Source: Paludibacteraceae bacterium
GTDB lineage: Bacteria > Bacteroidota > Bacteroidia > Bacteroidales > Paludibacteraceae
Reading direction: 5' to 3'
Length of the DNA: 52,642 nucleotides
NCBI GenBank assembly: GCA_017457295.1
Contig: JAFTHS010000012.1
Span: 1 to 52,642 of the forward strand
In this document: in pieces, positions 15,171 to 49,976 of the stretch
Layout of the letters: each line of letters begins with the position of its first letter
How positions within the stretch are numbered: position 1 is the stretch's first letter
Notes under the pieces: generated by a model
Seen by the model: the letters and a program-made list of their open reading frames with translations, nothing else
Database searches by the model: none
Told to the model about the DNA's origin: nothing
Made by a program: the position numbers and the translations under genes

Positions 15171-15236
15171 TATCTACCGTATATCTACCGTATATCTATC
15201 GTATATCTAACGTGTATCTATCGTGTATCTATCGTA
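15171..15236. repeat. Six tandem copies of an 11 bp repeat
   Basis: Consensus TATCTAYCGTR: TATCTACCGTA twice, TATCTATCGTA, TATCTAACGTG, TATCTATCGTG, TATCTATCGTA. The 66 bp tract lies about 70 bp upstream of the plus-strand promoter. The period is close to one helical turn, so every copy would face the same side of the DNA. Confidence 0.85.
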
Positions 15237-15306
15237 ATATACAGCATATAGCAGGCAGATGATTTTTGTAGAATTACGCTTTTTTGAAAAAGATTTTCGC
15301 GTGCGC

Positions 15307-15337
15307 TTGCGTATATGAAAAAAAAGTAGTATCTTTG
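15307..15337 (+). promoter_or_regulatory. Promoter of the glycogen/mannose unit
   Basis: TTGC (15307-15310), a 19 bp spacer and TATCTTTG (15330-15337) fit the consensus with one mismatch in the -33 box. It gives a leader of about 85 nt. Confidence 0.65.
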
Positions 15338-15429
15338 CAGGCTAATTGGAGAAATAGGCAGTATTTTTGAAGAAAACAACATAAACAACAAGTCAAAGTG
15401 GATTCAATAAACAAAACTATATACATACC

Positions 15430-27031: not shown

Positions 27032-27065
27032 AAAAAAGGAGTTCATAAGTTGGACTCCTTTTTTT
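27032..27065. terminator. Bidirectional terminator between rpoD and the HAD gene
   Basis: AAAAAAGGAGT (27032-27042) pairs with ACTCCTTTTTT (27054-27064) around an 11 nt loop, giving a GC-containing stem with a T-run on both strands. It ends rpoD (plus) and the 20 kb SusCD operon (minus). Confidence 0.9.
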
Positions 27066-27076: not shown

Positions 27077-27679
27077 TTAAGATAATGTTACTTTGGATAG
27101 TTCGCGTTTGGCTTGTTCCGTAGATTGAAATTGTACGGCATGTATGCCGATATTTTGTGCAGCAATCACATTATTTACGTTGTCGTCGAAGAATACACAC
27201 TCCTCTGGAGCAAGTTGATAGCGATTTAATAGAATATGATATATTTTGGCATCAGGTTTGGTCACTCTCTCTTCTCCTGACATCACAATACCATCCATCA
27301 ATTGGAATATACTGTATTTATCCTTTACTTGAATAAATGTTTCTGTTGACCAATTAGTTAGACCGTAAATAGCATAGCCCTGCTGTTTAAGTTGGAGAAT
27401 CCAGTCATACATACCTGGAATGGTGTCTCCCATCATATCAATCCAGCGCTCCCAATACAATCTGATCTCCTTCTCCCATTGAGGATATTGTGCGATTTTT
27501 TCTGCCACTCCTTGTTCGAAAGGTTTGCCCGCGTCCATTTGCATATTCCAATCCATGGTACAGATATTGCTAAGGAACCAATCTGCCGAATCTTTATCTC
27601 CGAAATAGGTATCGTAGAGATGGTGAGGATTCCAGTCCACAAGGACTCCACCAAAATCGAAAATAATATTTTTAATCAT
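27077..27679 (-). CDS. HAD-superfamily hydrolase (YihX-like)
   Basis: A 200-residue subfamily IA HAD protein. Motif I is IIFDFGGVLVDWNP, with nucleophile Asp8 and Gly at the +2 position; YihX, an alpha-glucose-1-phosphate phosphatase, has the same DxG pattern. Motif II is LTNWS, motif III Lys lies in RVTKPDAKIY, and motif IV is CVFFDDNVNNV. It is cytoplasmic. As the last gene of the operon, 5 bp after the esterase gene, it may dephosphorylate an imported or released phosphate ester such as glycerol phosphate or glucose-1-phosphate. That substrate is inference from context. Confidence 0.85.
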   Translation of the reverse strand: MIKNIIFDFGGVLVDWNPHHLYDTYFGDKDSADWFLSNICTMDWNMQMDAGKPFEQGVAEKIAQYPQWEKEIRLYWERWIDMMGDTIPGMYDWILQLKQQGYAIYGLTNWSTETFIQVKDKYSIFQLMDGIVMSGEERVTKPDAKIYHILLNRYQLAPEECVFFDDNVNNVIAAQNIGIHAVQFQSTEQAKRELSKVTLS

Positions 27680-27684
27680 ACGAA

Positions 27685-28551
27685 TTATTGTATTTGCTGC
27701 AAAATAAATTGATTCATTGCTGCTTCAAAAATTTCCTTTTGTGCTATTTGTTTGGAGAATCCCCATCCGTGTGCACCAGTGGGTAAAAGTAGCATTTCTG
27801 CTTTTACATGATGGAGCGTGAGTGCCTGATACATGCGTATGGCGTTTTCAACCATCACAGTAGGGTCGTCTTGACAATGCACGATAAAGCAAGGAGGTGT
27901 ATTCTCGTTGACGCATTTTTCGGCGGACCACGCATCACGAAGTTGCTGAGAAGGATTCTCACCTAAGAGTTGCTTGCATGAGCCCTTGTGGGTAATGGTA
28001 GCGTCCATACTGATTACAGGATAGACCAAGATACCAAAATCGGGGCGCGATTTTTGGTCATAGTATTTGGTGACTAAAGTAGCAGCAAGGTGTCCACCAG
28101 CGGAGAATCCAATCACTCCGATACGATTGGTAGGAATGCCCCATGTGGTGGCGCTATCACGCAATATATGCATGGCTTTTACCGCATCGGATAGAGGAAT
28201 ATCATGGTGCTGGTTAGGCATGCGATATTTAAGCACAGCTACGGCGATGTTACGTGGAGTGAAATAATTGGCTACCGCTTCTCCCTCGTTAGGAATAGAG
28301 GTGAAGACGTATCCTCCGCCTGGGCAAGTGAGAATCATGGCCGTAGGTTGCTCCTTAGGCAGATAAATATCCATGCGTGGTTCGGATGTTTTGTAGAGTC
28401 GTTTGTTTTTCTCTATTTCATCGCTGGCCACATATCCATTGTCATTAGGTTTGACACCATCGGGATAAAGTTGGATGGTATAGTTGGGTACAGCAGCAAA
28501 CAAGTTAGCCGCGAAGAACAATGAGCCAAGAGCCAAGAGTAAGCGTTTCAT
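27685..28551 (-). CDS. Exported alpha/beta-hydrolase esterase (BD-FAE/acetyl-esterase type)
   Basis: A 288-residue protein with signal peptide MKRLLLALGSLFFAANLFA. The oxyanion stretch TCPGGGYVFTS (75-85), nucleophile Ser150 in GFSAGG, acid Asp228 or Asp229 (HCQDDPT) and His261 (GAHGWGF) give a complete catalytic triad. Relatives annotated as acetyl-xylan esterase or feruloyl-esterase-like remove acyl groups from glycans. In this operon it could remove an acyl ornament (O-acetyl or perhaps D-alanyl) from the imported glycan. It starts 12 bp after the transporter gene. Periplasmic by its signal; no lipobox. Confidence 0.87.
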   Translation of the reverse strand: MKRLLLALGSLFFAANLFAAVPNYTIQLYPDGVKPNDNGYVASDEIEKNKRLYKTSEPRMDIYLPKEQPTAMILTCPGGGYVFTSIPNEGEAVANYFTPRNIAVAVLKYRMPNQHHDIPLSDAVKAMHILRDSATTWGIPTNRIGVIGFSAGGHLAATLVTKYYDQKSRPDFGILVYPVISMDATITHKGSCKQLLGENPSQQLRDAWSAEKCVNENTPPCFIVHCQDDPTVMVENAIRMYQALTLHHVKAEMLLLPTGAHGWGFSKQIAQKEIFEAAMNQFILQQIQ

Positions 28552-28563
28552 GTTGAATTTGAG

Positions 28564-29964
28564 TTATAAGTTATTTTTTCGGGATTTGTTCCATACAACA
28601 CAAACGAGTAGTACAGATAGAGTTGCGGCGATGATCCAAAACCAGAGTGCTTGTGTAAAATCGTACCGATAGATAGGATTTTCACCTTCTACGGAGATGA
28701 GCACCTTGTTGGCATCGATGAGTACACCTGATGCGATATCTTGTAGACCAGCTGCTGCATAGCTGGCAATACCTACAATACCTAAAGCGGCCCCAGAAGC
28801 TTCACGAGAAACGATATCTACAGCCATCAATCCGCCCAAGAAACAGATTAATACACCAATAGCAATACCAAAGAGAACCATTGCCAAGATATTTACCCAT
28901 AGCGCATTCCCGCCAAAAGCAAATAAGATGAGTGCAATAACTTCCATAATACCTGCTACAACAGCAGGAAGATATCTACTACCTTTGAACATCGTATCAG
29001 AAATCCAGCCAGAGAATACGGTACCTACAATACCTAATAAGGCATTAATAGAAATTATTTGTGTAGCCAAAGCAAGGTCAAACCCTTTGACTTCTTGCAA
29101 ATATAATACTCCCCAACCATTAATCGCGTAGCGACTAATGTACATAAAAGCTGAAGCTGCAGCCAGTACCCAAACATATGGATTACGAAGAACATCACGT
29201 TGCGCAGATTTAGTATTTATAGTTTTGGCATTTTCACTCTCTGTTTCTTCTCCAGCCCACACAGCTACAGATGGGAGTCCTTTTGCTTGTGGTGAATCAT
29301 GAAGCATAAAGATGATTAATACTACTCCTAAAGCACCTGCTATAGCCGCACCGATAAATCCATATTGCCACCCTGCGACACTAACCAATCCACCTACAAA
29401 AAGGAACGAAAGGAACTCTCCTATATTATGGCTTGCAGAGAAGAAGCCATAGAAGGTACCTCGATTAGATTTTGAATACCAACGTGATAAAGCCACAATA
29501 CTCGGTGGAGCACCCATACTTTGCGCCCAACCATTAATTCCCCATAGAATAGCGAATAGCAAATAGAATGCTGAAATAGATACCAATGTTTGAGTTAAAG
29601 TTAGCACTCCTAGTATTCCAACTGTAATATTAGCAACTGTTGAAACCAAGATACCCGTAGCCATAAACTTTCGGATATTGCTATAATCTGCTAAAAAGCC
29701 ATTAATAAACTTACCGATAGCATAGGTGAAGAGCAACGCGGAAGATATTACACCCAACTGCGATGCATCTAAAATACCTGCGTCCATTATCGGCTTTTTA
29801 ACCACATTGAGACTTGTTCGACAAACATAATAGAGGCTATACCCCAACGTTATTGCAATAAAAGAAGACCATTGCAAACGTCGGAATCGTTTATTAATAA
29901 CCTTTTGATCATCAGACACCAATGGTTGTGCTGGTGATTGCTTGTAAAAGGAAAATAGTGACAT
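28564..29964 (-). CDS. MFS organophosphate:phosphate antiporter (GlpT/UhpT/UhpC-like)
   Basis: A 466-residue 12-helix transporter. The OPA-family signature is in helix 1 (GYSLYYVCRTSLNVVKKP) with Arg49. Arg278 lies in helix 7 (FMYISRYAINGWGVLYL). These fit the two arginines that bind phosphate in E. coli GlpT (Arg45, Arg269). Other family marks are GWAQSMGAPPSIVALSRWYS and SASHNIGEFLSF. It would take up glycerol-3-phosphate or a sugar phosphate in exchange for phosphate. It overlaps the glycerophosphodiesterase stop codon (TAATG), so enzyme and transporter are coupled. GlpT-type is favoured over UhpT-type by that neighbour. Confidence 0.87.
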   Translation of the reverse strand: MSLFSFYKQSPAQPLVSDDQKVINKRFRRLQWSSFIAITLGYSLYYVCRTSLNVVKKPIMDAGILDASQLGVISSALLFTYAIGKFINGFLADYSNIRKFMATGILVSTVANITVGILGVLTLTQTLVSISAFYLLFAILWGINGWAQSMGAPPSIVALSRWYSKSNRGTFYGFFSASHNIGEFLSFLFVGGLVSVAGWQYGFIGAAIAGALGVVLIIFMLHDSPQAKGLPSVAVWAGEETESENAKTINTKSAQRDVLRNPYVWVLAAASAFMYISRYAINGWGVLYLQEVKGFDLALATQIISINALLGIVGTVFSGWISDTMFKGSRYLPAVVAGIMEVIALILFAFGGNALWVNILAMVLFGIAIGVLICFLGGLMAVDIVSREASGAALGIVGIASYAAAGLQDIASGVLIDANKVLISVEGENPIYRYDFTQALWFWIIAATLSVLLVCVVWNKSRKNNL

Positions 29965-30863
29965 TAATGTAGATTGTGTGCTTTAAGATAAGAGATTAAA
30001 AACTCTGGACGATCTGTTTGGATAATAGATGCTCCCAAAGTGTTGATAAGGTAGCCATAATGTGCTTCTGGATCCAAAAGTGCTTGGTCATCCTCATGAC
30101 CACCGCATAAAGTATCCCATAGACAATTTACCCATATGCGAGAAGTGCCTTTTAATAAATCAGCAGCTTGTATCATATAAGTAGGCTCTTCACGGAATGT
30201 AAGTTCAAACGCGCAGCGGTTGGCTGATATATGGCCTTTTAGAATATCAATATCTTCTGATTTATTGATAGCTACTATTGGCATATAAATCAGCTCATCA
30301 AGATATTTGCCATAGAGAGAATCTACCTCATTGGCAGGTCTGCGGCCTTTCATGATGATTTGTCGTGTGGTACCTGTTTCTTCTAGCAATGGCACGACAA
30401 GGTCGAAATAGCGATCGGCTTTATCCAAATTGATCAATACTTTTCCTTTGCACGCCAGCAAAACCTCACGCAATGTAGGGATATGATAACGCGTGCGGAT
30501 ATTCACTCCATTCTTGAGTTTGAATTGTTGGATGCTATCCAGAGTCATTTCGCTCACACGTCCTTTGCCAGTAGTTGTGCGATCTATTTTGGAGTCATGC
30601 ATAAGAATTAACTGACTATCAGCAGTACATTGGATATCAATTTCTAGGATATCAACCCCCATCTCAATAGCACTATTAATAGCCTCCATAGAATTTTCTG
30701 GATAGTTGCGCCAATCAGCTCGATGCGAAACTACCAATACTTGCTTGCTAGTCGGATTAAGCAATTCCTGACGAATTTGTTCGGAGCGAGGTGTCTCATT
30801 ACATGCTGTGACACTACACAATAGTAGTGCCAAAGGTATCAAATTAAGCCATTTCATATCCAT
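29964..30863 (-). CDS. Lipoprotein glycerophosphodiester phosphodiesterase
   Basis: A 299-residue GDPD-fold protein. Signal and lipobox LLLCSVTAC give lipidated Cys21. Catalytic residues are His47-Arg48 (SHRADWRNYPEN, with Glu56), Glu74 and Asp76 (DILEIDIQCT) and His89 (ILMHD), followed by DRTTTGKG. GDPDs cleave glycerophosphodiesters to sn-glycerol-3-phosphate and an alcohol. GlpQ of Bacillus subtilis is known to shorten glycerophosphate teichoic acid from the end. Here the product would be released in the periplasm or at the surface beside the OPA transporter. It shares TAATG junctions with both neighbours. Confidence 0.92.
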   Translation of the reverse strand: MDMKWLNLIPLALLLCSVTACNETPRSEQIRQELLNPTSKQVLVVSHRADWRNYPENSMEAINSAIEMGVDILEIDIQCTADSQLILMHDSKIDRTTTGKGRVSEMTLDSIQQFKLKNGVNIRTRYHIPTLREVLLACKGKVLINLDKADRYFDLVVPLLEETGTTRQIIMKGRRPANEVDSLYGKYLDELIYMPIVAINKSEDIDILKGHISANRCAFELTFREEPTYMIQAADLLKGTSRIWVNCLWDTLCGGHEDDQALLDPEAHYGYLINTLGASIIQTDRPEFLISYLKAHNLH

Positions 30864-32272
30864 TACATTTTAGCAACGATATTACGTTTACGAGCAATCT
30901 CTGCTTTGAAGCCCATAACATGGCTCTCTACAGATACATCGATGGTAGAGCTAAGGTATTTCTCATCGTGGTTAGCCACTGCAAGTACGAAATCCTTCAT
31001 AATACCCCAATCACCACCAGCATGGCCTTCGTATCCTGGGAGTTTGGAGATATCCTCATCCCAAATATATTGTTTTCCTGTTAAGAAATCTGTAAGTGTA
31101 AACGTCTTCATATCACCTACGATATCAGCCTTAGTACCCATGATACGCGTTTTGCGGCCACCAGAAGATGTCATTGCCTCCACAGACATCGAAGCAGTCA
31201 CTTGATCTTCGAATTGCATATTGCATACGTAGTGATCTACTTGGTCATTCTCGCTACGGAACACGCAACGACCATAATCTGTTGTACGCAAATATTCCTT
31301 AATTTTGATATCTTTTGCTGCTCTATCTTTTGGCAAGTTATCAAATACATATAGATAGCGATGTTGCTTGACGTAAATACGTTGTGCAGAGAATGGACAT
31401 TGGCTCTCTACAGCGCAATCTTCGCATCTGTCCGCAGCTCCAGCAGGTTCGTTTTGACGTTTGAAGAAACTGAGGTCGCCGAAAGCAGTCACTTGTTTGC
31501 AGGGCTTGTTGAGTAGCCAACGAACGATATCCAAGTCGTGGCAAGCCTTAGCGAGAATTAGTGGTGTAGTTTGTTTAGCAGATTGCCAGTTACCACGTAC
31601 GTAGGAGTGAGCAAAGTGATGGAAGCGAATAGGCTCTAAATGTTGGATACTTAAAACATCACCTACTCGTCCCTCGTCCAATACGCGCTTGAGCGCACGG
31701 AAATAAGGTGAATAACGCAATACGTGGCAAACACCTACAATACGACCATATTTTTTGGCTTGCTTGAGAATGTTTTTACACTCTTTTTCGGTTTGTGCGA
31801 TAGGTTTTTCCAAAAGCACATCATATCCAGCAGCCAAAGCAACCATACATGGATCATAGTGGAGGTTATCTGGAGTGGCGATAATGACAGCATCCGCAAA
31901 CTTGGGTAAGTTAAATACCTCTTTCCAATCCCCAAAACAATGTTCAGGAGCTATGCCGTAGAGGTTTTTCATCAAATCACGTCGTGTAGAATTGATGTCA
32001 GCTACACCTACAATCTTCAGTGCTTTAGAGTATTCGCTAGAATAACTAGCATATACGCTACCACGTGATCCTGCACCAATAACGATAGCTGTAACTGGTT
32101 TGTCCACTTTAGCTTCTTGATCTGGCAGACCAAATGCTAATCTTTCTTGATTCTTTTTGAGAGGAGTTGTTTGTGCGTTTGCTGATTGAATTAGTGACGC
32201 ACCAGGTACAGCATCTAATGCAAGGACTGCTGCACCTGCACCCATCATTTTGAGAAATTCTGCTCGTGTCAT
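30863..32272 (-). CDS. Exported Gfo/Idh/MocA-family oxidoreductase
   Basis: A 469-residue protein. The N-terminus MTRAEFLKMMGAGAAVLALD resembles a Tat signal, but Ala replaces the second arginine (TRAEFLK where SRRxFLK is usual). The Rossmann loop is AIVIGAGSRGSV (62-73), the sugar-binding EKPIAQTEKE starts at Glu155, and KACHDLDIVRWLL holds the family His245. Cys283, Cys286 and Cys292 (CEDCAVESQCP) form a likely metal-binding cluster. The family acts on NAD(P)-linked sugars, and GH109-like members remove alpha-GalNAc by a redox route, so sugar release without classical hydrolysis is possible. The substrate is unknown. Confidence 0.88.
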   Translation of the reverse strand: MTRAEFLKMMGAGAAVLALDAVPGASLIQSANAQTTPLKKNQERLAFGLPDQEAKVDKPVTAIVIGAGSRGSVYASYSSEYSKALKIVGVADINSTRRDLMKNLYGIAPEHCFGDWKEVFNLPKFADAVIIATPDNLHYDPCMVALAAGYDVLLEKPIAQTEKECKNILKQAKKYGRIVGVCHVLRYSPYFRALKRVLDEGRVGDVLSIQHLEPIRFHHFAHSYVRGNWQSAKQTTPLILAKACHDLDIVRWLLNKPCKQVTAFGDLSFFKRQNEPAGAADRCEDCAVESQCPFSAQRIYVKQHRYLYVFDNLPKDRAAKDIKIKEYLRTTDYGRCVFRSENDQVDHYVCNMQFEDQVTASMSVEAMTSSGGRKTRIMGTKADIVGDMKTFTLTDFLTGKQYIWDEDISKLPGYEGHAGGDWGIMKDFVLAVANHDEKYLSSTIDVSVESHVMGFKAEIARKRNIVAKM

Positions 32273-32284
32273 AATGATATTATA

Positions 32285-34366
32285 TTATTCGTTTTTATTT
32301 ACGTGTACAATCTCCTTGCCTGCTACTCTGATAGTAAGTGAAGACCATTCTTTAGGTAGAATCGGGGTATATACTTGTTTCAATCCTTTATCTGTGATCT
32401 CCAAACCTGCGAAACCGAAAATGATTGCTTGCAGTGTACCACCTGCTCCAGTAATAAAATAGGGATTAGTGCCTCCGTTGAACTCAGCTATCACGCGGAA
32501 AGGAGGATTAAGATTGGGTAAATAGGAATCATAGAAATAATGCAATGCTTGCTCCGCTTTCCCCAATCGTGCATAAAGTACGCTATATACAGATTTAGAC
32601 ATAGCAGGTGTCTTCTTTACAGGTACTTTAGCGATATAATACTCTAGGTTTTTACGAATTTGTGCAGTGTCAGTAACAATACGCAAAGGATACGCAAGGA
32701 GAGATACATCAGCTTGCTTGGTGACTTGACCATTATAAGTATCATATTCCTTGATTACCCCATTGTCAAGGTATTGGAATTGGAAAGCATTGGCAGTTGT
32801 ATTCCATTCCTTTTTAGGTTTAATGCCTAAGACATGCGCTGCTTGGGTGGCATAATAGAGATTGGTTTTGGCAACACCAAGCGTGTATGCGTTGTTATCA
32901 ATTAGTTTACCACCTAAATCATTAGCACTCCATTCGTCAGCACCAATGACATTATATAGATTAGCACGTCCTAATTCATCGTATTCTGCGCGTGATACCC
33001 AAAAGTCAGCAGGCTCTGCGATGAGGGAGTAGCCCTTTTCACGGAGCCACTCTTTGTCTTGTGTCACGCAATAGTATTGCCAAGCTGCAATAGCCACATC
33101 GCCTGTGATATGATGCTCTGCATTGGGATACATATTATGTGGAGCTACTTCTTCTTGTCCGCTATCGGCACTTTCCCATGGGAAGAGAGCGCCTTTGTAG
33201 CCATAGAAATAGGCCTTTTGCTTAGCACGATCTAATCGTTGGAATCGATAGTCTAAAGTCTCTTTGGCAAATTGTGGTTGCAGCACTAAGAGCACAGGAT
33301 ACATCCATGTCTCCGTATCCCAAAAGCAGTGTCCGTTGTAGCCTAGTCCGCTGAGTCCCATAGGTGAACATGACCACGCGTTTCCCTCTCGATAGAAAGC
33401 ATAGTGATGGTAGAGCATAGAGTGGATATCCTGCTGTGCTTGTGGGTCACCAGTAATTTGAATATCGCTCATCCATAGCTTATCCCATGCTGTATTATGA
33501 CGCTTCCATAAGCGTTCATAGCCTTCGGTCAGTTGATAGACTGTGAGACGCTCCACTTCGTTACGTACGTCGGGTACGGTATTGCTACCCATGATATTGC
33601 CCACAATAGCTATATGAAGAGTATCGCCTTGCTTGAGGATTTGGTCGAACTCCATGGTATGGCGTCCTACTCCACGATCTGTACGATGGCGAATCGTGTG
33701 TTCCACTCCACCAGACTTGTTGTCTGGGAAGAGAAATGCAGAAGTAGCAGCCAATTGATGACGACCAGTAGGACTCTGTGCGGTAGTAGTCATCACTACG
33801 TAGCGTGGATACGTAGTAGTATATGGATTGGCTTTGTTGTCAATATAGGAGAAGTAATCCTCTGGATTACGCAATGCCTCGTGAGCACGATGTTGGTTAA
33901 GCACTTGCAAGTGACAGTTTTTATTCGCAACGATAGTAATATCCATCATATAACCAAACGGCATTTGACGTAGTGCTACGGTGGTATATTCTACCTGTAT
34001 GATATCCTGAAAGTTAAAGGTACCTTTATGCGAAGCATTACGCATATCAAATGATTGGTGATAGTTATGAATATTGCCACGTTCACAACGTTGACCATCT
34101 ACCTTCAGTTCTACTTCTAATGGATTGATATTAGGGAAATAGTTGTTGACACGTCCTGAAGCATAGATATCATAGATACCTCCCACTACGAGTTTGTCAA
34201 TCTTGAGTGGTGAACGCGAACTAATAATACCAATTTGTCCGTTGGCTGAAGTAATACCATAGTAGTCACCTTGTAAGGGGTTTTCTACCTCAATAATCCA
34301 AGGGTCTTGTGCCATGCTGTATAGAGCAAAAGCATATGCGAATAAAGTTAAGAGCCAGTGCTTCAT
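32285..34366 (-). CDS. Secreted GH65-family alpha-glucoside-active enzyme
   Basis: A 693-residue protein with signal peptide MKHWLLTLFAYAFALYSMAQ. An N-terminal beta-sandwich (about 25-260) precedes an (alpha/alpha)6 barrel. GYNGHCFWDTETWMYP (342-357) is the GH65 substrate signature. VIGADEWS carries the general acid Glu478, followed by LIDNNAYTLG. AEFNGGTNPYFITGAGGTLQ (627-646) has Glu628 where hydrolases place a base, and the phosphorylases' phosphate-binding sequence is not evident. Hydrolysis of an alpha-glucoside is thus favoured over phosphorolysis. Characterised hydrolase relatives cleave kojibiose or Glc-alpha-1,2-Gal-hydroxylysine. It sits between the EEP fusion (5 bp) and the oxidoreductase (12 bp). 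Confidence 0.85.
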   Translation of the reverse strand: MKHWLLTLFAYAFALYSMAQDPWIIEVENPLQGDYYGITSANGQIGIISSRSPLKIDKLVVGGIYDIYASGRVNNYFPNINPLEVELKVDGQRCERGNIHNYHQSFDMRNASHKGTFNFQDIIQVEYTTVALRQMPFGYMMDITIVANKNCHLQVLNQHRAHEALRNPEDYFSYIDNKANPYTTTYPRYVVMTTTAQSPTGRHQLAATSAFLFPDNKSGGVEHTIRHRTDRGVGRHTMEFDQILKQGDTLHIAIVGNIMGSNTVPDVRNEVERLTVYQLTEGYERLWKRHNTAWDKLWMSDIQITGDPQAQQDIHSMLYHHYAFYREGNAWSCSPMGLSGLGYNGHCFWDTETWMYPVLLVLQPQFAKETLDYRFQRLDRAKQKAYFYGYKGALFPWESADSGQEEVAPHNMYPNAEHHITGDVAIAAWQYYCVTQDKEWLREKGYSLIAEPADFWVSRAEYDELGRANLYNVIGADEWSANDLGGKLIDNNAYTLGVAKTNLYYATQAAHVLGIKPKKEWNTTANAFQFQYLDNGVIKEYDTYNGQVTKQADVSLLAYPLRIVTDTAQIRKNLEYYIAKVPVKKTPAMSKSVYSVLYARLGKAEQALHYFYDSYLPNLNPPFRVIAEFNGGTNPYFITGAGGTLQAIIFGFAGLEITDKGLKQVYTPILPKEWSSLTIRVAGKEIVHVNKNE

Positions 34367-34371
34367 AGTAA

Positions 34372-36789: not shown

Positions 36790-36798
36790 AATTGATTG

Positions 36799-38406: not shown

Positions 38407-38456
38407 AATAATAAAATTTAATTGTTAATAAATGATTTGTTAAATTATAATAGGAT

Positions 38457-38486
38457 GGAATTCGCTCTCCGTAAAGAACGAATTCC
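38457..38486. other. Hairpin between susD and the beta-helix gene
   Basis: A perfect 8 bp inverted repeat, GGAATTCG (38457-38464) / CGAATTCC (38479-38486), with a 14 nt loop sits 7 bp after the susD stop. There is no T-run on the minus strand, so it is more likely an mRNA 3'-end stabiliser or attenuator that keeps susCD message above that of the downstream genes. Confidence 0.6.
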
Positions 38487-38492
38487 GACCAA

Positions 38493-40256: not shown

Positions 40257-40272
40257 ACTATTTTCCTCCTTA

Positions 40273-43200
40273 TTAGAATGTAGCAGTTAGACCAAATGTA
40301 AATGACTTAGCAAAGCCATAGGTAATAGCCTGCGTGAGTGCTGCAGCGGATTCTGGGTCGATGGTATTGCAGTATTTCTTGAGAGGAGAAGTGTACCAGA
40401 GGTTCTCTCCTGAGAAATAGATACGGAACTCAGAGAATACCTTCTTCCAGCAAGGAAGAGTATAGCCAACGGTCAAGTTCTTGAATCGCAGATACCCAAT
40501 GTTTTGTAAATATCGATCATTAGGTTGACCTAACGAGTTTTGAGAACCAAGAGCTTCGTATGCGCGGTAGCGTGGGAAATATGCATCTGGATTATGCTCG
40601 CTCCAAACGAGATCCATAAATCCTTCAGGAATCAGACCTTGGTAAGGACGTGAATATGGTCCCCAGAAAGTGGTAGCCTCGTTGGTAGGATACCAGTCGC
40701 GACGACCTACACCTTGCCAGAACATAGAGAAATCGAAACCGAAGTAGTCGAAGCCGAGACGGAAATTGTAGCTATAGCGTGGAAGGCTATTACCGATAAC
40801 TACGCGATCTCCATAGTCATCTGCTGTAGCCGCACCATTATCAATTGCACCGTCGCCATCGAGGTCAAGATAAATAAGATCGCCTGCGCGTGCACCAGTC
40901 TTGCCGTCCACAGTCACGAGGTTGATATCGCCGTATACGAGCGATTGGTCCACTTCGTATGCAGCAGCTGCTTCATCGGAAGCGAATAGACCACCCGTCT
41001 TGAAGCCCCAGATCTCGCCGAGTCGCATACCCTCGTAGTAGCCCGCTTCGATAACCTTGGTGGGGTTGTCGAACTTGGTGATAGTAGATTGATAGTCACC
41101 CAAACCTGCACTGACTTCGTATTCGAAGTCATGGCCACCAAGTTTCTTATTATCGCGCCAAGAGAGCGCAATCTCCCAACCGATGGTTTGCATGTCAGCA
41201 GCATTGATTTTTGGAGCACTTGCGCCATAAATGGATGGTAAACCTTTACCAGCCACCAACATATCGGTAGTATTGCGGATATAGAAGTCACCAGTGAAGT
41301 TCAAGCGATTGCGGAAAAAGCCCCAGTCCACACCTATGTCATAGGTGGTCATTTTCTCCCATGTGAGGTCGCCCGAGTTAGGTGCACTCTCTGTAGCATA
41401 TTGCAACGCAGTAGCACCATCTAAGGTGATCTTTTGCTCGAAGATGTTATCAACAGAGATAGTTTGATATGCATCGTAATACCCCACTAATTGGTTGCCC
41501 AATTGACCAGCAGAGAAACGCAATTTGCTATTGCTCCAAACATCTGAGATTGGCTCCCAGAATGATTCTTCACTCATACGCCAACCCATACTACCAGCAG
41601 GGAACACGCCCCAGCGGTGACCTTTGGAGAAACGTGAAGAACCATCGGCACGAACAGACATCTCAAAGAGATATTTGCCAGCATAGTCGTAGTTGATACG
41701 TCCGAACACACCATTGGTGACAGCCTCTTGTACTTTTTCGCTGAGTTCGTTTAATTCACCAGTAGCAAAGTTGAAGTTGCTGAGGTCTTCGGTGAGAAGG
41801 TCAAGACGATCAACTACCAAGTCGTGGTAGCGATAATTCTCTCCATTGAAACCTGCCATCATAGTAAGATGATGTTGTCCCCATGTAGGATTCCATGTGA
41901 GGTAGATATTGTAGTTGTGCGTGTTGTAACGCGCTAAAGTCTGTTTGTAGTAATCCACTGAGCGCCAGCTATCCATGAGGATAAGATCGCCACTGACATT
42001 GTCGGTGTAAGGCACTTTAACGGAGCGATTGCTAATCTCTTTCATGCGCCACTTGAAGGAATAATCAGCAGTCAGGGTGAGGTTCTTTGCCAAATCAATA
42101 TCCAAACGATTTTGGATAACCATCTCGTTGTTTTTCTCAGCGTTCTTGTGTCCGCCATATTGCAGCAAGGCATTCATACCATCACCCACCGTACCAGCGC
42201 CATTATATACAAAATAGTTCATATACACTGGTGTGCCGTCGGGGTTGTTGGCTGGCACGAAAGGCAAAGCGTGTAACGAACCTACACGGAAGACCTCGCG
42301 TACAGACTCGGTACCTGGGTAAGTGTATTTAGAGTTGAAGAAACTGAAGTTAACGCCATAGCGCAACCAAGGGCGGATATTGATATTCACTTTTGCACGG
42401 GTGGAGAAGTTCTGCCATTTGTCGGTATTGATAGCGATCATACCATCCTCGTTGTAATAGCGTCCGCTGACATAGTAGTTGACCTTTTCGTTGCCACCTG
42501 TGACAGAAATGTTGTAGTCCTGCATAGGGCGGTTTTTCTTGTAGTAGTGGTCGTACCAATTGCAGTTGGCATAATACTTGTATCGCCCATCCGATTGTGC
42601 TACAGCCCAAGGACGTTCAGGGTCTTCTTCGGTTTGGCCATAGCGCATCCACAATTCAGCATAATCGGCTTCGTTGTAGGTGGTCATGTTGTAGTTGGCA
42701 TGATGGTGCATAAAGAGGTCGTTGATATACGCAGACATGAAACCATCGGTGATGAAATCGGTACTGGTGGTTTGCGTTTTCCAACCTGCTTTAGCATCAA
42801 GAGTAACAGTAGGAGCCTTGCCCTCTGCACCCTTTTTGGTAGTAACGAGGATGACACCAGCCGCCGCTTTGGCACCGTAGATAGCAGATGCAGATGCATC
42901 TTTGAGCACGGAGATTGACTCTACGTCGTTGTTGTTGACACGCTTTAGGTCCATCTCCACACCATCTACCAATATCAACGGTTTTACACCACTATTGATA
43001 GAAGCTACACCACGAATGTCAATTTTGAAGTCAGAGTTAGGACTACCGGCATTCATTGTAATATTGAGTGAGGGATCGGCACCTTGAAGAGCCGTTGCCA
43101 TGTTTTGGGTAGGACGACCTGCCACTTCTTCTGCGGTTACCACAGATACAGCACCTGTAAGGTTCACCTTCTTTTGTGCACCATATCCGACTACCACGAC

Positions 43201-43761
43201 CTCATCTAGTTGCTCAGCATCCTCTTGCAATGTGACATTATAAGACGTGGTTGTAGCAGCAACACGCAATTCATAGGTTTTATAGCCTATATATGAAATT
43301 TGAAGATATTGACCAGGTTTGACATTGCTCAACGAAAAGTTACCATCAAAATCGGTGATTGTACCATTATCGGTATTTTTCACACGAACGGTAGCTCCAA
43401 TAATAGGGAAATTGGTAGCATCAACTACTACACCATCTATGGTTTTCCCTACTACTGATTGCTCTTTTTCTTTGTTGGAAAGTGCTATCACATTGTTATC
43501 CATGATGGTATAAACAATGGTAGTCCCCTGGAATAAAGTATTGAGTGCAACTTCCAGAGGGGTTTGGTCGAAAGCAACAGAAACTATATGATCTAGACCT
43601 ACTAGACTAGTAGAATTATAGAAGAAATGATATCCAGAAGCTTGTTCGAATGGTTGCAATACATCACGAATCGGTTTTTCCGATATGTTCAATGTGACAC
43701 TTTGTGCCATCATTGTGATGGCGCAGCAGATAGAAAAGAATATAAATAATATGCGTTTCAT
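40273..43761 (-). CDS. SusC/RagA-family TonB-dependent transporter with STN domain
   Basis: An 1162-residue outer-membrane receptor. After the signal peptide, residues about 21-97 form an STN (secretin/TonB short N-terminal) domain, which talks to a FecR anti-sigma factor. A carboxypeptidase-regulatory-like beta domain follows (about 105-180), then the TonB box LDEVVVVGYG (185-194), plug (GAVSVVTAEEVAGRPTQNMA onward; GVKPLILVDGVEMD) and 22-strand barrel ending FGLTATF with terminal Phe. The STN domain and the sigma/FecR pair at the operon head indicate that ligand passage induces the locus by transmembrane signalling. It forms a pair with the SusD gene. Confidence 0.96.
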   Translation of the reverse strand: MKRILFIFFSICCAITMMAQSVTLNISEKPIRDVLQPFEQASGYHFFYNSTSLVGLDHIVSVAFDQTPLEVALNTLFQGTTIVYTIMDNNVIALSNKEKEQSVVGKTIDGVVVDATNFPIIGATVRVKNTDNGTITDFDGNFSLSNVKPGQYLQISYIGYKTYELRVAATTTSYNVTLQEDAEQLDEVVVVGYGAQKKVNLTGAVSVVTAEEVAGRPTQNMATALQGADPSLNITMNAGSPNSDFKIDIRGVASINSGVKPLILVDGVEMDLKRVNNNDVESISVLKDASASAIYGAKAAAGVILVTTKKGAEGKAPTVTLDAKAGWKTQTTSTDFITDGFMSAYINDLFMHHHANYNMTTYNEADYAELWMRYGQTEEDPERPWAVAQSDGRYKYYANCNWYDHYYKKNRPMQDYNISVTGGNEKVNYYVSGRYYNEDGMIAINTDKWQNFSTRAKVNINIRPWLRYGVNFSFFNSKYTYPGTESVREVFRVGSLHALPFVPANNPDGTPVYMNYFVYNGAGTVGDGMNALLQYGGHKNAEKNNEMVIQNRLDIDLAKNLTLTADYSFKWRMKEISNRSVKVPYTDNVSGDLILMDSWRSVDYYKQTLARYNTHNYNIYLTWNPTWGQHHLTMMAGFNGENYRYHDLVVDRLDLLTEDLSNFNFATGELNELSEKVQEAVTNGVFGRINYDYAGKYLFEMSVRADGSSRFSKGHRWGVFPAGSMGWRMSEESFWEPISDVWSNSKLRFSAGQLGNQLVGYYDAYQTISVDNIFEQKITLDGATALQYATESAPNSGDLTWEKMTTYDIGVDWGFFRNRLNFTGDFYIRNTTDMLVAGKGLPSIYGASAPKINAADMQTIGWEIALSWRDNKKLGGHDFEYEVSAGLGDYQSTITKFDNPTKVIEAGYYEGMRLGEIWGFKTGGLFASDEAAAAYEVDQSLVYGDINLVTVDGKTGARAGDLIYLDLDGDGAIDNGAATADDYGDRVVIGNSLPRYSYNFRLGFDYFGFDFSMFWQGVGRRDWYPTNEATTFWGPYSRPYQGLIPEGFMDLVWSEHNPDAYFPRYRAYEALGSQNSLGQPNDRYLQNIGYLRFKNLTVGYTLPCWKKVFSEFRIYFSGENLWYTSPLKKYCNTIDPESAAALTQAITYGFAKSFTFGLTATF

Positions 43762-43772
43762 AATCTTATCAG

Positions 43773-44213
43773 TTATTTAATAGTGTCTTGAACAGTAATT
43801 GTAATAGGAATTTCAACTTTGTAGAACTCCCAATTAGGATACTGTAATTTACCAAAGAAATACAGTTTCACTTCTCCAGGCTCGGTAAGTACAATGGGAG
43901 ATGATGTAGCCACATACTTTCCTGCTTCGTTTTGAGCAAAGGTTTGAAAATCTGCAGTTAATTCATGATTACCAAACCACCAACTGGCATAAAACCAATA
44001 CTGGTTATCATCCTCAAAAAGCTCTTCTGAGCCTGTTGTAAGACGTTCTATAGAACAAGTGATAGTATCCCCTATAGCATAGGAATCTAGTTGAGGAGAA
44101 ATTGTGATATTGCTGAATGTAGGAAGAACCACGGTTGACCTCGGCTCACAAGAAGCCAAAGTCAACGCCGTGATAACCATCAACAATATGCATTTAGCAA
44201 ATTGTTTCATCAT
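43773..44213 (-). CDS. Small lipoprotein of unknown function in SusCD operon
   Basis: A 146-residue protein with signal peptide and lipobox LTLASC (lipidated Cys22, MMKQFAKCILLMVITALTLA before it). The mature part is about 120 residues, rich in beta-strand-forming residues (FSNITISPQLDSYAIGDTIT; TEPGEVKLYFFGKLQYPNWE), suggesting a single immunoglobulin-like or carbohydrate-binding-module-like sandwich with surface aromatics (YWFYASWWFG). I recognise no family. It lies between the beta-helix gene and susC, so it could be an extra surface glycan-binding lipoprotein acting with SusD. Confidence 0.75.
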   Translation of the reverse strand: MMKQFAKCILLMVITALTLASCEPRSTVVLPTFSNITISPQLDSYAIGDTITCSIERLTTGSEELFEDDNQYWFYASWWFGNHELTADFQTFAQNEAGKYVATSSPIVLTEPGEVKLYFFGKLQYPNWEFYKVEIPITITVQDTIK

Positions 44214-44222
44214 AAGAAATTA

Positions 44223-45848
44223 TTATTTAATAGAAATTTTGTGCGTACCTTGCTCAGTAACAACGATATACATACCAGTTGTCAAGTCGTTGATTGTAGT
44301 ATCGATTTGACGCCCCAGCATATCGTAAACAGCCAACACTTGTGCTGCAATAATATTTTCTACAGAAGTAATTGTAGATTGCTTGAAAATAATGGCTAAA
44401 GTGATGTTGCTTTCTACTGCAGGGATGGTGTAAACACCTTCAACTGCCTCAAGAGCGGTGCTGTTAAGCACTATTTGGTCGAGCACATAACCTGAAGCAG
44501 GAGTAGCAACTACATTAGCTGTGAAGCCCTCTGGCACTTGCATTTCGCCCGCTGCGAGTGAGACGGATTGTCCGAGGAATTCGAGTGTAGCTGTACCATT
44601 CTCAATAGCCTCTACAGTAGCGGTATAAACAGTATGTTCAACTGCACCGAGGTCAATGTTTGCACCTTGTTTACGAACGTTGCCATAAACATCTTTATCG
44701 CCTACGAAATAGGTCAATGCCTCCTTGCTTCCTGCATTGTAGAGAGGCGAAGTCCATGTAAAACTATAATCATCGTTGAATTGAGGATCGTTCTCAGCGC
44801 TAAGAGCGATGTAATCTGCTCCAAGGTCCGTTGTACCTTGCAATGCGTTGCTAGCAAAAGTGCCGTTGGATGCATAGTGCTTGAGGTAAGGCATTACTTG
44901 ATTAACCAATGTGTCATTGTGTGTATTGCCCCAGATTACATTGTTTACAAACAACTTACCATTGTAATTTGTAGCGGTATTGTCAGAAGCACGGAAACCT
45001 GCCCAAGTAACACGATCAGCTGTTGTTGTATTGTGGTTATTACCTACAATAGTAGTGTTAATCACATTATTGTATTTTCTAGCTTGTACACCACCAATAT
45101 TACCATCGGCGTGGTTACCTACAACCAAGCAGTTGTATACTGCACCACCTGCAGCAGCGATATCAATACCACCTACGTCTTTTTTACATACGTTGTTGCG
45201 TACGATACTGTTGTGCAATTGACCAATATTGTGCAAATATACACCACCACCATTGCCAGTAGCCTCGTTATTTTCAACCAAGCAGTTGATAGCTACACCT
45301 GCAGTACGGATACCACCACCGTGAGTAGCCTTGTTGTTACGAACAATACAGTTAATAGCGCAAGTATCACCATTTGAGTTTTGGGCGATACCACCACCAG
45401 CACATTGTGTTGCAGGATCATAGGTAAAGGTGTTATTTTGTACCAAGCAATTGATTACACGACCATTCTTGAGCAGTGCCACACCAGCACCTAAGTTGCC
45501 GGCTAGAGCTTCAGTGAGTTTACCATTTTGGATTGTGAAGTTATCCCAGATAGTTAATGTTGTAAAGTTATTAGGTTGGTTCAACACGCGACCATTGGCT
45601 TTTGCATCGAGAATAGAAGCGTGCTCAGTTTGCGCAGTGAAATCTTCGTTCCAACCACCTGAAACATACACACCATCTTTCATGATGAAATTACCTTCGT
45701 AGGTACCAGCTTGCACCAAAACGGTGTCACCGCTGTTGGCTGCATCTACAGCTGCTTGCAAGTCGTTGCCTGCTTTTACTTGTACTTGAGTAGCCATAAG
45801 GCTTGCACTAGCAAAGATGCTTAGTGCCAAAAAATAAAGTTTCTTCAT
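44223..45848 (-). CDS. Surface right-handed beta-helix protein with T9SS-type tail
   Basis: A 541-residue protein with signal peptide MKKLYFLALSIFASASLMA. It starts the helix with VKAGNDLQAAVDAANSGDTV and continues with rungs such as CLVENNEATGNGGGVYLHN and SIVRNNVCKKDVGGIDIA. It closes with the family stretch KDVYGNVRKQGANIDLGAVE (about residues 386-405). A beta-sandwich (about 410-490) and a T9SS type-A-like sorting tail follow (VYDMLGRQIDTTI...LTTGMYIV...HKISIK). No clear catalytic motif. It is the first structural gene after fecR, so it may be a surface adhesin or glycan-binding protein. Confidence 0.82.
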   Translation of the reverse strand: MKKLYFLALSIFASASLMATQVQVKAGNDLQAAVDAANSGDTVLVQAGTYEGNFIMKDGVYVSGGWNEDFTAQTEHASILDAKANGRVLNQPNNFTTLTIWDNFTIQNGKLTEALAGNLGAGVALLKNGRVINCLVQNNTFTYDPATQCAGGGIAQNSNGDTCAINCIVRNNKATHGGGIRTAGVAINCLVENNEATGNGGGVYLHNIGQLHNSIVRNNVCKKDVGGIDIAAAGGAVYNCLVVGNHADGNIGGVQARKYNNVINTTIVGNNHNTTTADRVTWAGFRASDNTATNYNGKLFVNNVIWGNTHNDTLVNQVMPYLKHYASNGTFASNALQGTTDLGADYIALSAENDPQFNDDYSFTWTSPLYNAGSKEALTYFVGDKDVYGNVRKQGANIDLGAVEHTVYTATVEAIENGTATLEFLGQSVSLAAGEMQVPEGFTANVVATPASGYVLDQIVLNSTALEAVEGVYTIPAVESNITLAIIFKQSTITSVENIIAAQVLAVYDMLGRQIDTTINDLTTGMYIVVTEQGTHKISIK

Positions 45849-45893
45849 GATACTTTAAGTTTTTTCGAGTTAATATTAATGTTGACTAAAAAA

Positions 45894-46859
45894 TTATATT
45901 CGTTTATGTAGATAAACCGTATCTGTATCGTAATAGTAGCGTATTCCCGAAGTCATGGATAGTACCTCTAATACATTACGCAAGCTACTTTGCCCAAGAT
46001 AACCAGTAAAACGCTCTTTCTTGAGTTCATCGGAAGTGATGACGATACGTATATTATAATTACGTGCGAGTTCTCCAGCAATTTCTTCGAGTGTTTGGTT
46101 GTTATATCGCACTTCATTGTTGAGCCAGCAGAGGTAGTTGTTGGAGTCTACACGATGCTTCGATAGAGCCAAGGTGTGTTTGTCAAACACCATTCGGTTG
46201 TCGGGCTCCATCAATAGTTCAGCTGCGCCCGCTTGCACACGCACTTTGCCCTCCACTAATACCACGGATACCGTTTGCTCTTCTTCGTGATTTCGTACAT
46301 TGAAAGAGGTGCCTAAGCACTCTACTTCGACGTCATTTGCATACACTATGAAAGGATGATCTGTGTCTTTTCCCACATCAAAAAACGCCTCGCCCTGCAA
46401 GAATACTTTTCGCTTGCCATCAATCATGGAGTAGTTGTATTGCAGTTTGGTTTTAGCATTTAACACAACATGTGTCCCATCAGGTAAAGTAACATTGCTG
46501 CGTTCTCCTATGTTGGTAGCCACCTCAAACATACCCGTCATATGCTCCATGCGGAAGGTGTAGTGATACACCGCTGCTCCCACACACATGGCCACCATGA
46601 CAGAGCATATCATCATCACTCGTTTCCAAATAGGCATTCGAGAACGGATTGCAGGAGCAGTGGTATTGTTGCGGAATACATTGTTAATCACTCTGTCACG
46701 TACAATATCTGGCATCACTTCGTCTGCCATTTCGATGGAAGTACGCACCCATTCATCTACGTTCTGGTCGTTTTTTATTAGATACAGTAAGTGCTCCTTC
46801 TCCATATTGGATAAGTTGCCTTGTAAATATTTTTCAGCTAATTTTTTCATGCTTACCAT
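45894..46859 (-). CDS. FecR-family anti-sigma factor
   Basis: A 321-residue protein. The N-terminal cytoplasmic part (MVSMKKLAEKYLQGNLSNME; ATG 46850 also possible) binds the sigma factor. One membrane helix lies at about 80-102 (WKRVMMICSVMVAMCVGAAV). The periplasmic FecR domain holds GERSNVTLPDGTHVVLNAKT and GEAFFDVGKDTDHPFIVYAN, and the C-terminal secretin-like DUF4974 domain VRYNNQTLEEIAGELARNYN. It relays the SusC STN signal to the ECF factor encoded 26 bp upstream. Together these three form a FecIRA-type switch for the operon. Confidence 0.95.
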   Translation of the reverse strand: MVSMKKLAEKYLQGNLSNMEKEHLLYLIKNDQNVDEWVRTSIEMADEVMPDIVRDRVINNVFRNNTTAPAIRSRMPIWKRVMMICSVMVAMCVGAAVYHYTFRMEHMTGMFEVATNIGERSNVTLPDGTHVVLNAKTKLQYNYSMIDGKRKVFLQGEAFFDVGKDTDHPFIVYANDVEVECLGTSFNVRNHEEEQTVSVVLVEGKVRVQAGAAELLMEPDNRMVFDKHTLALSKHRVDSNNYLCWLNNEVRYNNQTLEEIAGELARNYNIRIVITSDELKKERFTGYLGQSSLRNVLEVLSMTSGIRYYYDTDTVYLHKRI

Positions 46860-46885
46860 ATTGCCGTATAAGTTGTTTAGGTTGG

Positions 46886-47395
46886 TTAGTCGTTTAATTT
46901 TTCTCTTAGTTGCTTTAATGCTAAAGTGATATGCACCTCTACTGTTTTTTCGCTGATATTAAGTATTTGTGCTATCTCTTTATTCGTTTTGTGCTTAAAA
47001 CGAGATAAGACAAACACTCGTTGTCTTTGAGGAGGCATCTGCATTACAAGGTCTTTGATGTACTCCTCCAAGAATTTAGCATCTTGCCCTTCCTCTTGCA
47101 TGTTATCGACCTCTTCTTCTTGTGATTGGAGGTAATCTGCATATACTCGTTTCACCATCTCATGGTCGCAGTAGTTGACAAATGTATTTTTGGCAGTAGT
47201 GAACAAATATGATAGCACTCTGTCTTGCGATTTTAGATTTCCCCAATGTTCCCAAAGTTTGGTAAATGTGGTCTGAAGTATTTCCTCAGACAAATAGGTA
47301 TCTCCTTTGGAAATTACCATTGCGAAACTATAAATGCGTCCGCTATATTGTTTGTATATTTGTTCGAATTCTATTTGTTCTGGTGTTTTTTTCAT
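46886..47395 (-). CDS. ECF RNA polymerase sigma factor (sigma-70 family)
   Basis: A 169-residue two-domain ECF sigma. Region 2 is YSGRIYSFAMVISKGDTYLS and EEILQTTFTKLWEHW (about 15-56), and region 4 is MPPQRQRVFVLSRFKHKTNK and EIAQILNISEKTVEVHITLA. It heads the 14-gene minus-strand operon with FecR and diverges from tatA. Bacteroidota ECF/FecR pairs switch on the linked SusCD operon when ligand binds SusC. A -7-like TACCTTTG lies 35 bp upstream. Confidence 0.95.
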   Translation of the reverse strand: MKKTPEQIEFEQIYKQYSGRIYSFAMVISKGDTYLSEEILQTTFTKLWEHWGNLKSQDRVLSYLFTTAKNTFVNYCDHEMVKRVYADYLQSQEEEVDNMQEEGQDAKFLEEYIKDLVMQMPPQRQRVFVLSRFKHKTNKEIAQILNISEKTVEVHITLALKQLREKLND

Positions 47396-47588: not shown

Positions 47589-47765
47589 ATGATTGGAACA
47601 ACTGAAATCATTGTCATTGCACTCGTTATTTTGTTGCTTTTTGGAGGCGCAAAGATTCCTCAATTGATGAAGGGTCTTGGCAAAGGCATTCATGAGTACA
47701 AGAAAGGTCTTTCAGGAGAAGATATTGACGATGAGAAGTCGTCAAAAAATAACGACGACAAGTAA
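47589..47765 (+). CDS. tatA: Sec-independent translocase subunit TatA/E
   Basis: A 58-residue protein from ATG 47589 (MIGTTEIIVIALVILLLFGG). The upstream in-frame extension overlaps the promoter and is rejected. One membrane helix is followed by the FGxxKxP-type hinge (FGGAKIPQLMKGLGKGIHEY), an amphipathic helix and an acidic/lysine tail, as in TatA. It forms the variable-size pore of the twin-arginine system that exports folded proteins. tatC starts at its stop codon. No tatB is seen; TatA-TatC systems work without it in many bacteria. Confidence 0.94.
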   Translation: MIGTTEIIVIALVILLLFGGAKIPQLMKGLGKGIHEYKKGLSGEDIDDEKSSKNNDDK

Positions 47766-49947: not shown

Positions 49948-49976
49948 GAAGTTGTTGTATGGTTGTTTTAATTCAT

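Follow-up and report, generated by a model that had tools for sequence, protein, structure and literature searches.

Gene content and organization of the locus

We analyzed a 52,642-nucleotide stretch of DNA from a Paludibacteraceae bacterium (hereafter the window), which is one entire contig (JAFTHS010000012.1) of a 2.19 Mb Bacteroidales draft assembly in 145 contigs (GCA_017457295.1). We identified in it an operon of fourteen open reading frames on the minus strand (27077-47395), in which a SusC/SusD pair is combined with phosphoesterases, a glycoside hydrolase of family 65 (GH65) and an organophosphate carrier. An earlier note on this sequence had described fourteen minus-strand genes, running from an extracytoplasmic function (ECF) sigma factor gene to a strong terminator with gaps of 0-86 bp. 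The arrangement was confirmed, with gaps of -1 to 86 bp as computed from the coordinates.

Gene families were assigned by Pfam and NCBIfam profile searches (calls made by eye are marked as such) and agree with those named earlier. The first gene encodes the ECF sigma factor (46886-47395; Sigma70_r2/r4), and it is followed by genes for a FecR anti-sigma factor (45894-46859; FecR, FecR_C), BH2, a secreted beta-helix-like protein (by eye) and probable surface binding protein (44223-45848), a small surface lipoprotein (43773-44213; lipobox by eye), a SusC TonB-dependent transporter with an STN signaling domain (40273-43761; TIGR04056, 859.5 bits; PF07660), a SusD lipoprotein (38493-40256; PF07980) and BH1, also a secreted beta-helix-like protein (by eye; 36799-38406). 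No Pfam match at E 0.001 was found for BH2, the small lipoprotein or BH1, the last of which matched no family in these searches.

The second half of the operon encodes mostly enzymes. An EEP-fold phosphoesterase with a long C-terminal part and a type IX secretion system (T9SS) tail is proposed to be a surface phosphodiesterase (34372-36789; PF03372, TIGR04183). It is followed by the GH65 enzyme, an alpha-1,2-glucosidase of the kojibiose-hydrolase group predicted by eye to be periplasmic (32285-34366; NF053734), and by a Gfo/Idh/MocA NAD(P) enzyme with a leader resembling those of the twin-arginine translocation (Tat) pathway, proposed to act on glycosides (30863-32272; PF01408). A lipoprotein glycerophosphodiesterase with GDPD and DUF4996 domains (29964-30863; PF03009, PF16387; 265.5 bits to 3i10) precedes an organophosphate:phosphate antiporter of the OPA family (28564-29964; 160.8 bits to GlpT, 1pw4), an exported esterase of BD-FAE type, which may remove D-alanyl or acyl groups (27685-28551; PF20434), and a HAD-IA phosphatase without a signal peptide by eye (27077-27679; PF00702). 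The OPA and GDPD genes overlap by 1 bp, as do those for GDPD and Gfo/Idh, and the largest gap (86 bp) lies between BH1 and SusD.

A terminator hairpin (27032-27064) separates the operon from a convergent sigma-70 (rpoD-like) gene. Its strength was borne out by folding (-12.6 kcal/mol, z -4.3; none of 200 shuffles equaled it). The pattern TTTG-N17-21-TAnnTTTG, which we take to be the Bacteroidetes promoter, has 11 matches in the window, where 1.4 would be expected, and the only minus-strand copy within the operon lies inside the ECF gene, which fits a single transcript. A sigma-70 style promoter scan was uninformative (51 sites versus 49 expected by shuffles). With neighboring SusC and SusD genes, GH65 and an ECF/FecR regulator, the operon has the make-up of a SusCD-type polysaccharide-utilization locus (PUL). 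It also has that of a phosphate utilization system (PUS), in which SusCD is accompanied by phosphomonoesterase or phosphodiesterase genes, here EEP and GDPD.

Conservation in the genus

The closest named records with the GDPD of the window are metagenome-assembled genomes of Paludibacteraceae or Bacteroidales, whose stated sources are gut or faeces of buffalo, deer, sheep, goat and horse. Among 178 genomes of the genus, the OPA carrier (E <= 1e-60) is present in 31, and GH65 and Gfo/Idh are present in 19 each (both in 18). All 20 genomes having GH65 or Gfo/Idh also have the carrier. We compared the stretches around the carrier gene in 22 congeners, many on contigs that end early (that of G551 starts within SusC). 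GH65, GDPD and OPA lie in one stretch in 17 of the 22, and GDPD and OPA accompany GH65 in every congener that has it (17/17). By gene, GH65 and Gfo/Idh were found in 17, GDPD and the esterase in 19, and SusC and SusD in 14.

As far as contigs reach, the order is ECF-FecR-BH2-lipoprotein-SusC-SusD-BH1-(HAD)-EEP-GH65-Gfo/Idh-GDPD-(NagB/PIG-L)-OPA-esterase, with identities from 31% (BH2) up to 95% (Gfo/Idh). In 11 of the 22 congeners, these genes are preceded by one for an ECF factor 57-61% identical to that of the window. One to three relatives of BH2 occupy the equivalent place (in 13/22), and relatives were also found for the small lipoprotein (13/22; 41-46% identical, and 80% in G547, a close relative) and BH1 (15/22). 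The HAD of the window recurs in two congeners, and eight have a different HAD, of the same Pfam family and without a BLAST match to it. Gfo/Idh was absent from the G600 stretch around OPA, and no esterase was found within 2.5-3.5 kb beyond OPA in G540, G604 and G611. Because gene set and order recur in congeners, we conclude that the operon genes form one conserved unit, the composition of which is selected and not due to chance.

A second form of the locus occurs in the genus (L046, L103, L108 and L109), with SusC 49-51% and SusD 44-45% identical to those of the window. BH1 relatives, EEP and OPA are kept, and GH65 and Gfo/Idh were not seen in these four stretches. In L046 a single protein (13115-15418) joins a BD-FAE esterase, a GDSL hydrolase and GDPD with DUF4996, an arrangement suggesting a common substrate for de-esterification and for GDPD. 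A protein of L103 (24-2990) combines an EEP domain with GH3.

A NagB/PIG-L gene lies in the OPA stretch of four of the 22 congeners (for example, L100 12922-14880) and beside OPA in L108, L109 (by 57% identity to the L100 gene) and L111. Long NagB-domain frames were found elsewhere in the window's genome (contig C116) and in G480, G540, G551, G589, G611 and G626, and at least one PF01182 match in all 15 genomes searched. Since NagB is thus a general gene, widespread outside the locus, we dropped glucosamine 6-phosphate as a candidate cargo of the carrier.

A distinct clade of GH65 enzymes

The GH65 enzyme scores 857.5 bits on the kojibiose-hydrolase model NF053734 (cut-off 800), which supports placing it in the alpha-1,2-glucosidase group. 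A GH65 resembling that of Flavobacterium johnsoniae, in L035, scores 1114.3 for comparison. The nearest solved relative is FjGH65A (7fe3; 716.7 bits, 326 of 649 aligned residues identical). The 18 GH65 sequences examined from the genus form one separate clade (support 100/100). All of them retain the catalytic residues E472 and E616 as well as W391 and E392, and K538 is also kept. Comparison at the FjGH65A subsite +1/+2 residues (R74, W391, E392, T407, E475 and K538) revealed that R74 is replaced by S, T or P, T407 by Y, and E475 by A, S, N, Q, M or T in 18/18 sequences. The clade also has a six-residue insert containing GGK after the ADEW/ANEW motif.

In FjGH65A, O6 of the +1 glucose is blocked by R74 (PMC10316084). 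We read the genus enzyme as a putative kojibiose-type alpha-glucosidase, the acceptor site of which appears altered and more open. Published GH65 substrates include kojibiose and 2-O-alpha-glucosylglycerol (PMC8537180), and the altered +1 residues would leave room for the latter. By analogy, glucosylglycerol or its phosphate, as in glucosylated wall teichoic acid (WTA), is a fair guess for the substrate; that the lysine of the GGK insert might bind phosphate is only a guess.

The glycerophosphodiesterase and the organophosphate carrier

The GDPD lipoprotein has the residue set of GlpQ-type enzymes: its H47, R48, E74, D76 and H89 are spaced exactly as the active-site residues H43, R44, E70, D72 and H85 of Bacillus subtilis GlpQ (PMC7086022). 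GlpQ is described as cutting WTA, a polymer of sn-glycerol-3-phosphate, from its end; it needs an unsubstituted C2 hydroxyl and halts at glucosylated or alanylated units (PMC7086022). This block by C2 substituents provides a reason for glycosidases and an esterase in the locus, which would strip the chain before GDPD acts.

At positions of GlpT that we presume to be informative, the carrier keeps Y38, Y42, R45, Y76, K80, H165, Y266, R269 and Y393. The two phosphate-binding arginines claimed earlier (equivalents of R45 and R269) are among them, as is the whole phosphate-site set of R45, K80, H165 and R269. These four residues are shared with UhpT and UhpC and so are not specific to GlpT; judging from them, the carrier likely binds phosphate. 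In a tree of OPA carriers, the Escherichia coli references joined on long branches and placed nothing. Replacement of W161 by F was tried as a mark of GH65-type loci and gave no rule, as F is found in the window, L044, L050, L087, L154 and L160 and not in the GH65-type loci L090 and L094.

Outside the genus we examined the best 80 of at least 499 relatives (79 distinct), which are those nearest to the query and not a random sample. In 19 of 65 named loci, GDPD and OPA are encoded on one strand and no more than 300 bp apart; three of these 19 have an identical OPA, and one (L166) is a distant pair (28% and 25%). OPA and SusC are both present in 17 of the 65. GDPD-OPA is thus a recurrent pair, like glpT-glpQ of E. 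coli. A Bacteroides locus, L154, encodes SusC, SusD, two calcineurin-type phosphoesterases, two GDPDs, GH65 and OPA, with GH31 downstream. Its GH65 (NF053734, 860.2 bits) falls outside the genus clade, and we therefore read L154 as a separate combination.

The EEP enzyme and the SusCD clade

The EEP protein matches PF03372 (E 5.5e-15) and contains the motifs YNIR, QEV, THMN, GDFN and SDHFP; its T9SS tail is weak (TIGR04183, 24.3 bits versus a cut-off of 23). Solved relatives are 3g6s and 4c1r.

A search with SusD only gave 46 matches in 33 of 393 genomes of the order. We took 20 near stretches (from 15 genomes) and 20 further ones, around SusD relatives from other families; the remaining matches are the window, L041 and four that were left out. 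By a profile built partly from six of the near loci, an EEP gene occurs in 12/20 near versus 1/20 far loci, with one weak match in each set (L277, L290) and 11 versus 0 without them. By BLAST with references from outside the set, the counts are 7/20 and 0/20 (p 0.008). GDPD was also considered as a partner of this SusD clade and was rejected (2/20 versus 0/20, not significant), which leaves the EEP link alone standing. The glycosidases of the related loci vary. L261 and L264 add GH89, GH20 and GH3, and L258 and L259 have the order SusC-SusD-BH1 relative-phosphodiester glycosidase-EEP, the glycosidase (PF09992) lying at 7348-9891 and 10187-12664, respectively. The SusCD clade is therefore linked to phosphoester chemistry, and its accompanying glycosidases change from locus to locus.

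The Gfo/Idh enzyme and its link to Tat

The Gfo/Idh protein begins with a Tat-like leader (MTRAEFLK in the window, MERRDFLK in L121, and MERRDFLK or MTRKEFLQ in relatives), and the fold residues EKP and CHDLD are kept in the genus sequences. No close solved relative was found (best 59.5 bits), and the protein falls far below the BT_2158 and BT_2159 glycoside 3-dehydrogenase models (39.1 and 42.4 bits versus cut-offs of 750 and 650).

Genes for tatA (by eye; 47589-47765, plus strand) and tatC (47765-48574, plus strand; PF00902, 196.4 bits), which overlap, are separated from the ECF gene by 193 bp. Neither the Gfo/Idh gene nor the adjoining tatAC had been assigned a function in the earlier note. 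TatC is present in 19/20 genomes with GH65 or Gfo/Idh versus 74/158 others (Fisher p 1.8e-5, uncorrected for kinship), the one genome without it being G618, which is 64% complete. A tatC gene lies near the locus, at either end, in 10/22 congeners as well as in the window, with 41-72% identity to that of the window. Seventeen other tatC stretches were taken, and of the seven inspected gene by gene, by eye, four have a neighbor with a twin-arginine leader and three a radical-SAM-like neighbor. A second TatC is encoded in the window's genome on contig C36. We infer that the Gfo/Idh enzyme folds around its cofactor before it is exported by Tat, and the adjoining tatC is the proposed exporter.

An alkaline phosphatase gene adjoins tatC in the window (48556-50082, minus strand; PF00245). 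The same adjacency is seen in G547 and on a separate G551 contig (L256).

Proposed function and its alternatives

We tentatively propose, with somewhat less than an even chance of being right, that the operon serves the uptake and degradation of a glycerol-phosphate polymer whose glycerol bears esters and alpha-glucose, as single or kojibiose-like units, most likely a Gram-positive teichoic acid, with WTA favored. From the observed gene content, conservation, family membership, catalytic residues and linkage of the parts, we infer substrates, order of steps, compartments and the chemistry of the EEP and Gfo/Idh enzymes as follows. SusD and the secreted beta-helix-like proteins would bind the polymer at the cell surface, where the T9SS-exported EEP enzyme would cut it, and SusC would import the fragments. 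In the periplasm, the esterase would take off ester groups, and GH65 and the Tat-exported Gfo/Idh enzyme would take off alpha-glucose, which would free the C2 hydroxyl of glycerol. The lipoprotein GDPD would then release glycerol 3-phosphate, to be imported by the OPA carrier in exchange for phosphate. A ligand at SusC would signal through the STN domain to FecR and on to the ECF factor.

Several observations weigh against this proposal. The GH65 score exceeds the NF053734 cut-off by only 7%, and R74, T407 and E475 of FjGH65A are lost throughout the genus clade. The earlier note had likewise proposed a glucosylated, esterified glycerophosphate polymer, such as lipoteichoic acid (LTA) or WTA, and the debranching set and the GDPD-OPA pair speak for it. 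The WTA described in PMC7086022, however, bears a single alpha-glucose, not kojibiose, and the published evidence for kojibiose concerns LTA: in that of Enterococcus faecalis, the glycerol phosphate is substituted with kojibiose, D-alanine and alanyl-kojibiose (PMC7692742). Yet intact LTA, the sn-glycerol-1-phosphate enantiomer, is not opened by GlpQ, and fragments left by internal cleavage of LTA are acted on (PMC7086022). This favors WTA over LTA, which would first need an endo-cut; an endo-acting EEP enzyme would resolve the difficulty. The EEP fold agrees with the earlier phosphodiesterase claim, but diesterase activity is a guess; 4c1r is named a mannosyl-6-phosphatase, and the enzyme may be a monoesterase.

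The carrier raises a similar doubt. It had been likened to GlpT-type importers of glycerol 3-phosphate, and of this the phosphate site stands. The protein differs from GlpT at W138, W161, N162, D274 and Y362, is no nearer to GlpT (26.0% identity) than to UhpC (28.4%) or UhpT (24.5%), and scores 222.1 bits on the PgtP model, 219.2 on UhpC and 207 on GlpT. The last is well short of the cut-off of the glpT equivalog TIGR00712 (632.55), which leaves the protein assigned at the level of the OPA family only. Transport of glycerol 3-phosphate is for these reasons a prediction. Co-occurrence of the families, which had been suggested as a check, held within the genus and for the GDPD-OPA pair outside it. 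In contrast, the 11 GH65 loci taken from outside the family but within the order include one with GDPD (L041) and none with OPA, so that GH65 alone does not imply glycerol phosphate. GDPD together with OPA occurs in only 2/20 near SusD loci, which ties the SusCD clade to EEP rather than to glycerol phosphate. In G547 (L088, L207), no ECF, FecR or BH2 gene was found between the lipoprotein gene and tatC. L041 (1-19901) itself combines SusCD at 36% identity with GH3, GH65, three DUF4434 proteins, a GH27-like protein, a SASA esterase, a calcineurin phosphoesterase and GDPD.

A further point against a teichoic acid comes from G480 (L045 1901-11153), in which a second SusCD, a relative of endo-beta-1,2-glucanases (PF10091; 5gzk/5gzh, 550 bits) and GH3 lie between OPA and an esterase 53% identical to that of the window. 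Osmoregulated periplasmic glucans of Proteobacteria are glycerophosphorylated and succinylated beta-glucans, and with such a substrate GDPD would remove phosphoglycerol, the esterase succinate, and partner glycosidases the glucan. We consider this rather unlikely, as the glucanase was found in 1/22 congeners (mostly 2-6 kb beyond OPA were covered, and 18 others show the esterase there), and the core locus has no beta-glucanase and encodes GH65, a family of enzymes of alpha-glucosides (PMC8537180). Salvage of headgroups of phospholipids or phosphoglycolipids (glycerophosphodiesters, glycerophospho-glucosides), with dying cells or ciliates as the source and phosphate as the main gain, is unlikely, if less so. 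The adjoining alkaline phosphatase would suit it, as would the 7/24 OPA-bearing loci outside the genus in which SusC was not seen in the examined stretch, and it would resemble the PUS of F. johnsoniae, where SusCD is found with phosphodiesterases or phosphomonoesterases and with organophosphate transporters of the inner membrane, and where PUSI is interpreted as a system for lipid headgroups and nucleic acids (PMC8115612). Against it, SusCD and a T9SS-tailed EEP enzyme suggest a larger ligand, and GH65 and Gfo/Idh are constant in this form of the locus. The relay of ECF factor, FecR and STN domain, which typically senses ligands, also argues for ligand rather than phosphate sensing.

The collagen Glc-Gal glycans that the earlier note had listed as an alternative are disfavored by the GH65 itself, the match of which to collagen-type PGGHG is far weaker than that to the kojibiose hydrolase (197.6 versus 716.7 bits). 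More broadly, a eukaryotic or host phosphoglycan (phosphomannan, a GPI-like glycan or a collagen glycan) seems improbable. The mannosyl-6-phosphatase relative of EEP, the phosphodiester glycosidase and GH89/GH20 beside related SusCD genes, and a carrier no nearer GlpT than hexose-phosphate carriers would fit such a substrate, but Pfam searches gave no mannosidase match in the locus, and GDPD points to glycerol phosphate. Very improbable, in our judgment, is a locus for alpha-1,2-branched dextran or a kojibiose-type glucan with incidental phosphoesterases. FjGH65A, the closest characterized GH65, does work in a dextran PUL (PMC10316084). The operon, however, has no Pfam match to GH31, GH66 or GH97, its GH65 belongs to the separate genus clade with changed +1/+2 residues, and GDPD and OPA accompany that enzyme in every congener that has it.

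Comparison with known systems and implications

The PUS of F. johnsoniae and its relatives resemble the locus in their PUL-like build, and PhoA1 of PUSII carries a GDPD_2 domain (PF13653). They are induced by phosphate depletion and, unlike the operon studied here, use calcineurin-type phosphodiesterases or PhoA; GDPD, PF03009, GlpT and glycerol go unmentioned in the main text of PMC8115612, and no GH65, Gfo/Idh or esterase was seen in its account of them. The dextran locus FjDexUL shares SusCD and a GH65 kojibiose hydrolase; it differs by having GH66, GH31, GH97 and SusR, with no phosphodiesterase named in its description (PMC10316084), and its GH65 keeps R74, T407 and E475 and lacks the GGK insert. 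In glpT-glpQ of E. coli, an OPA carrier (26% identical to that of the window) adjoins a glycerophosphodiesterase as it does here, but SusCD and sugar-stripping enzymes are absent. B. subtilis GlpQ has the same H, R, E, D, H set, equally spaced, but acts as a teichoicase on unmodified WTA of its own kind, outside any foraging locus, and is stereospecific for sn-glycerol-3-phosphoryl ends (PMC7086022).

Searches of the open-licence literature, judged by title, revealed no teichoic-acid import locus in Bacteroidota, and a query for GDPD, SusD and Bacteroides retrieved only a paper on iron stress. The composition reported here is thus without a description in the open-licence literature examined, in so far as those sources cover it. 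The kind of locus, a PUL or phosphate-utilization locus, is known, since in PUS, too, SusCD occurs together with phosphodiesterases and organophosphate transporters.

A wider reading, which we regard as doubtful, is that the SusCD clade consists of outer-membrane importers of phosphodiester-linked wall polymers, with EEP as a common partner and exchangeable side-chain modules. GH65, the Tat-exported Gfo/Idh enzyme, esterase, GDPD and OPA might then serve alpha-glucosylated poly(glycerol phosphate), GH89, GH20 and GH3 might serve GlcNAc-decorated polymers, and the phosphodiester glycosidase might serve sugar-1-phosphate links. In that case, teichoic acids of neighboring Gram-positive cells would be grazed on by gut Bacteroidales, with some loci bringing their own Tat translocase.

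The altered GH65 subclade and the link between Gfo/Idh and Tat stand as separately testable points. In a gut rich in Gram-positive bacteria, much carbon and phosphate is present as teichoic acids. If the proposed function is correct, the operon would name candidate enzymes for teichoic-acid use, GH65, Gfo/Idh, GDPD and OPA beside SusCD would be a marker for finding such loci, and cross-feeding or predation-like grazing on the cell walls of neighbors would be predicted.

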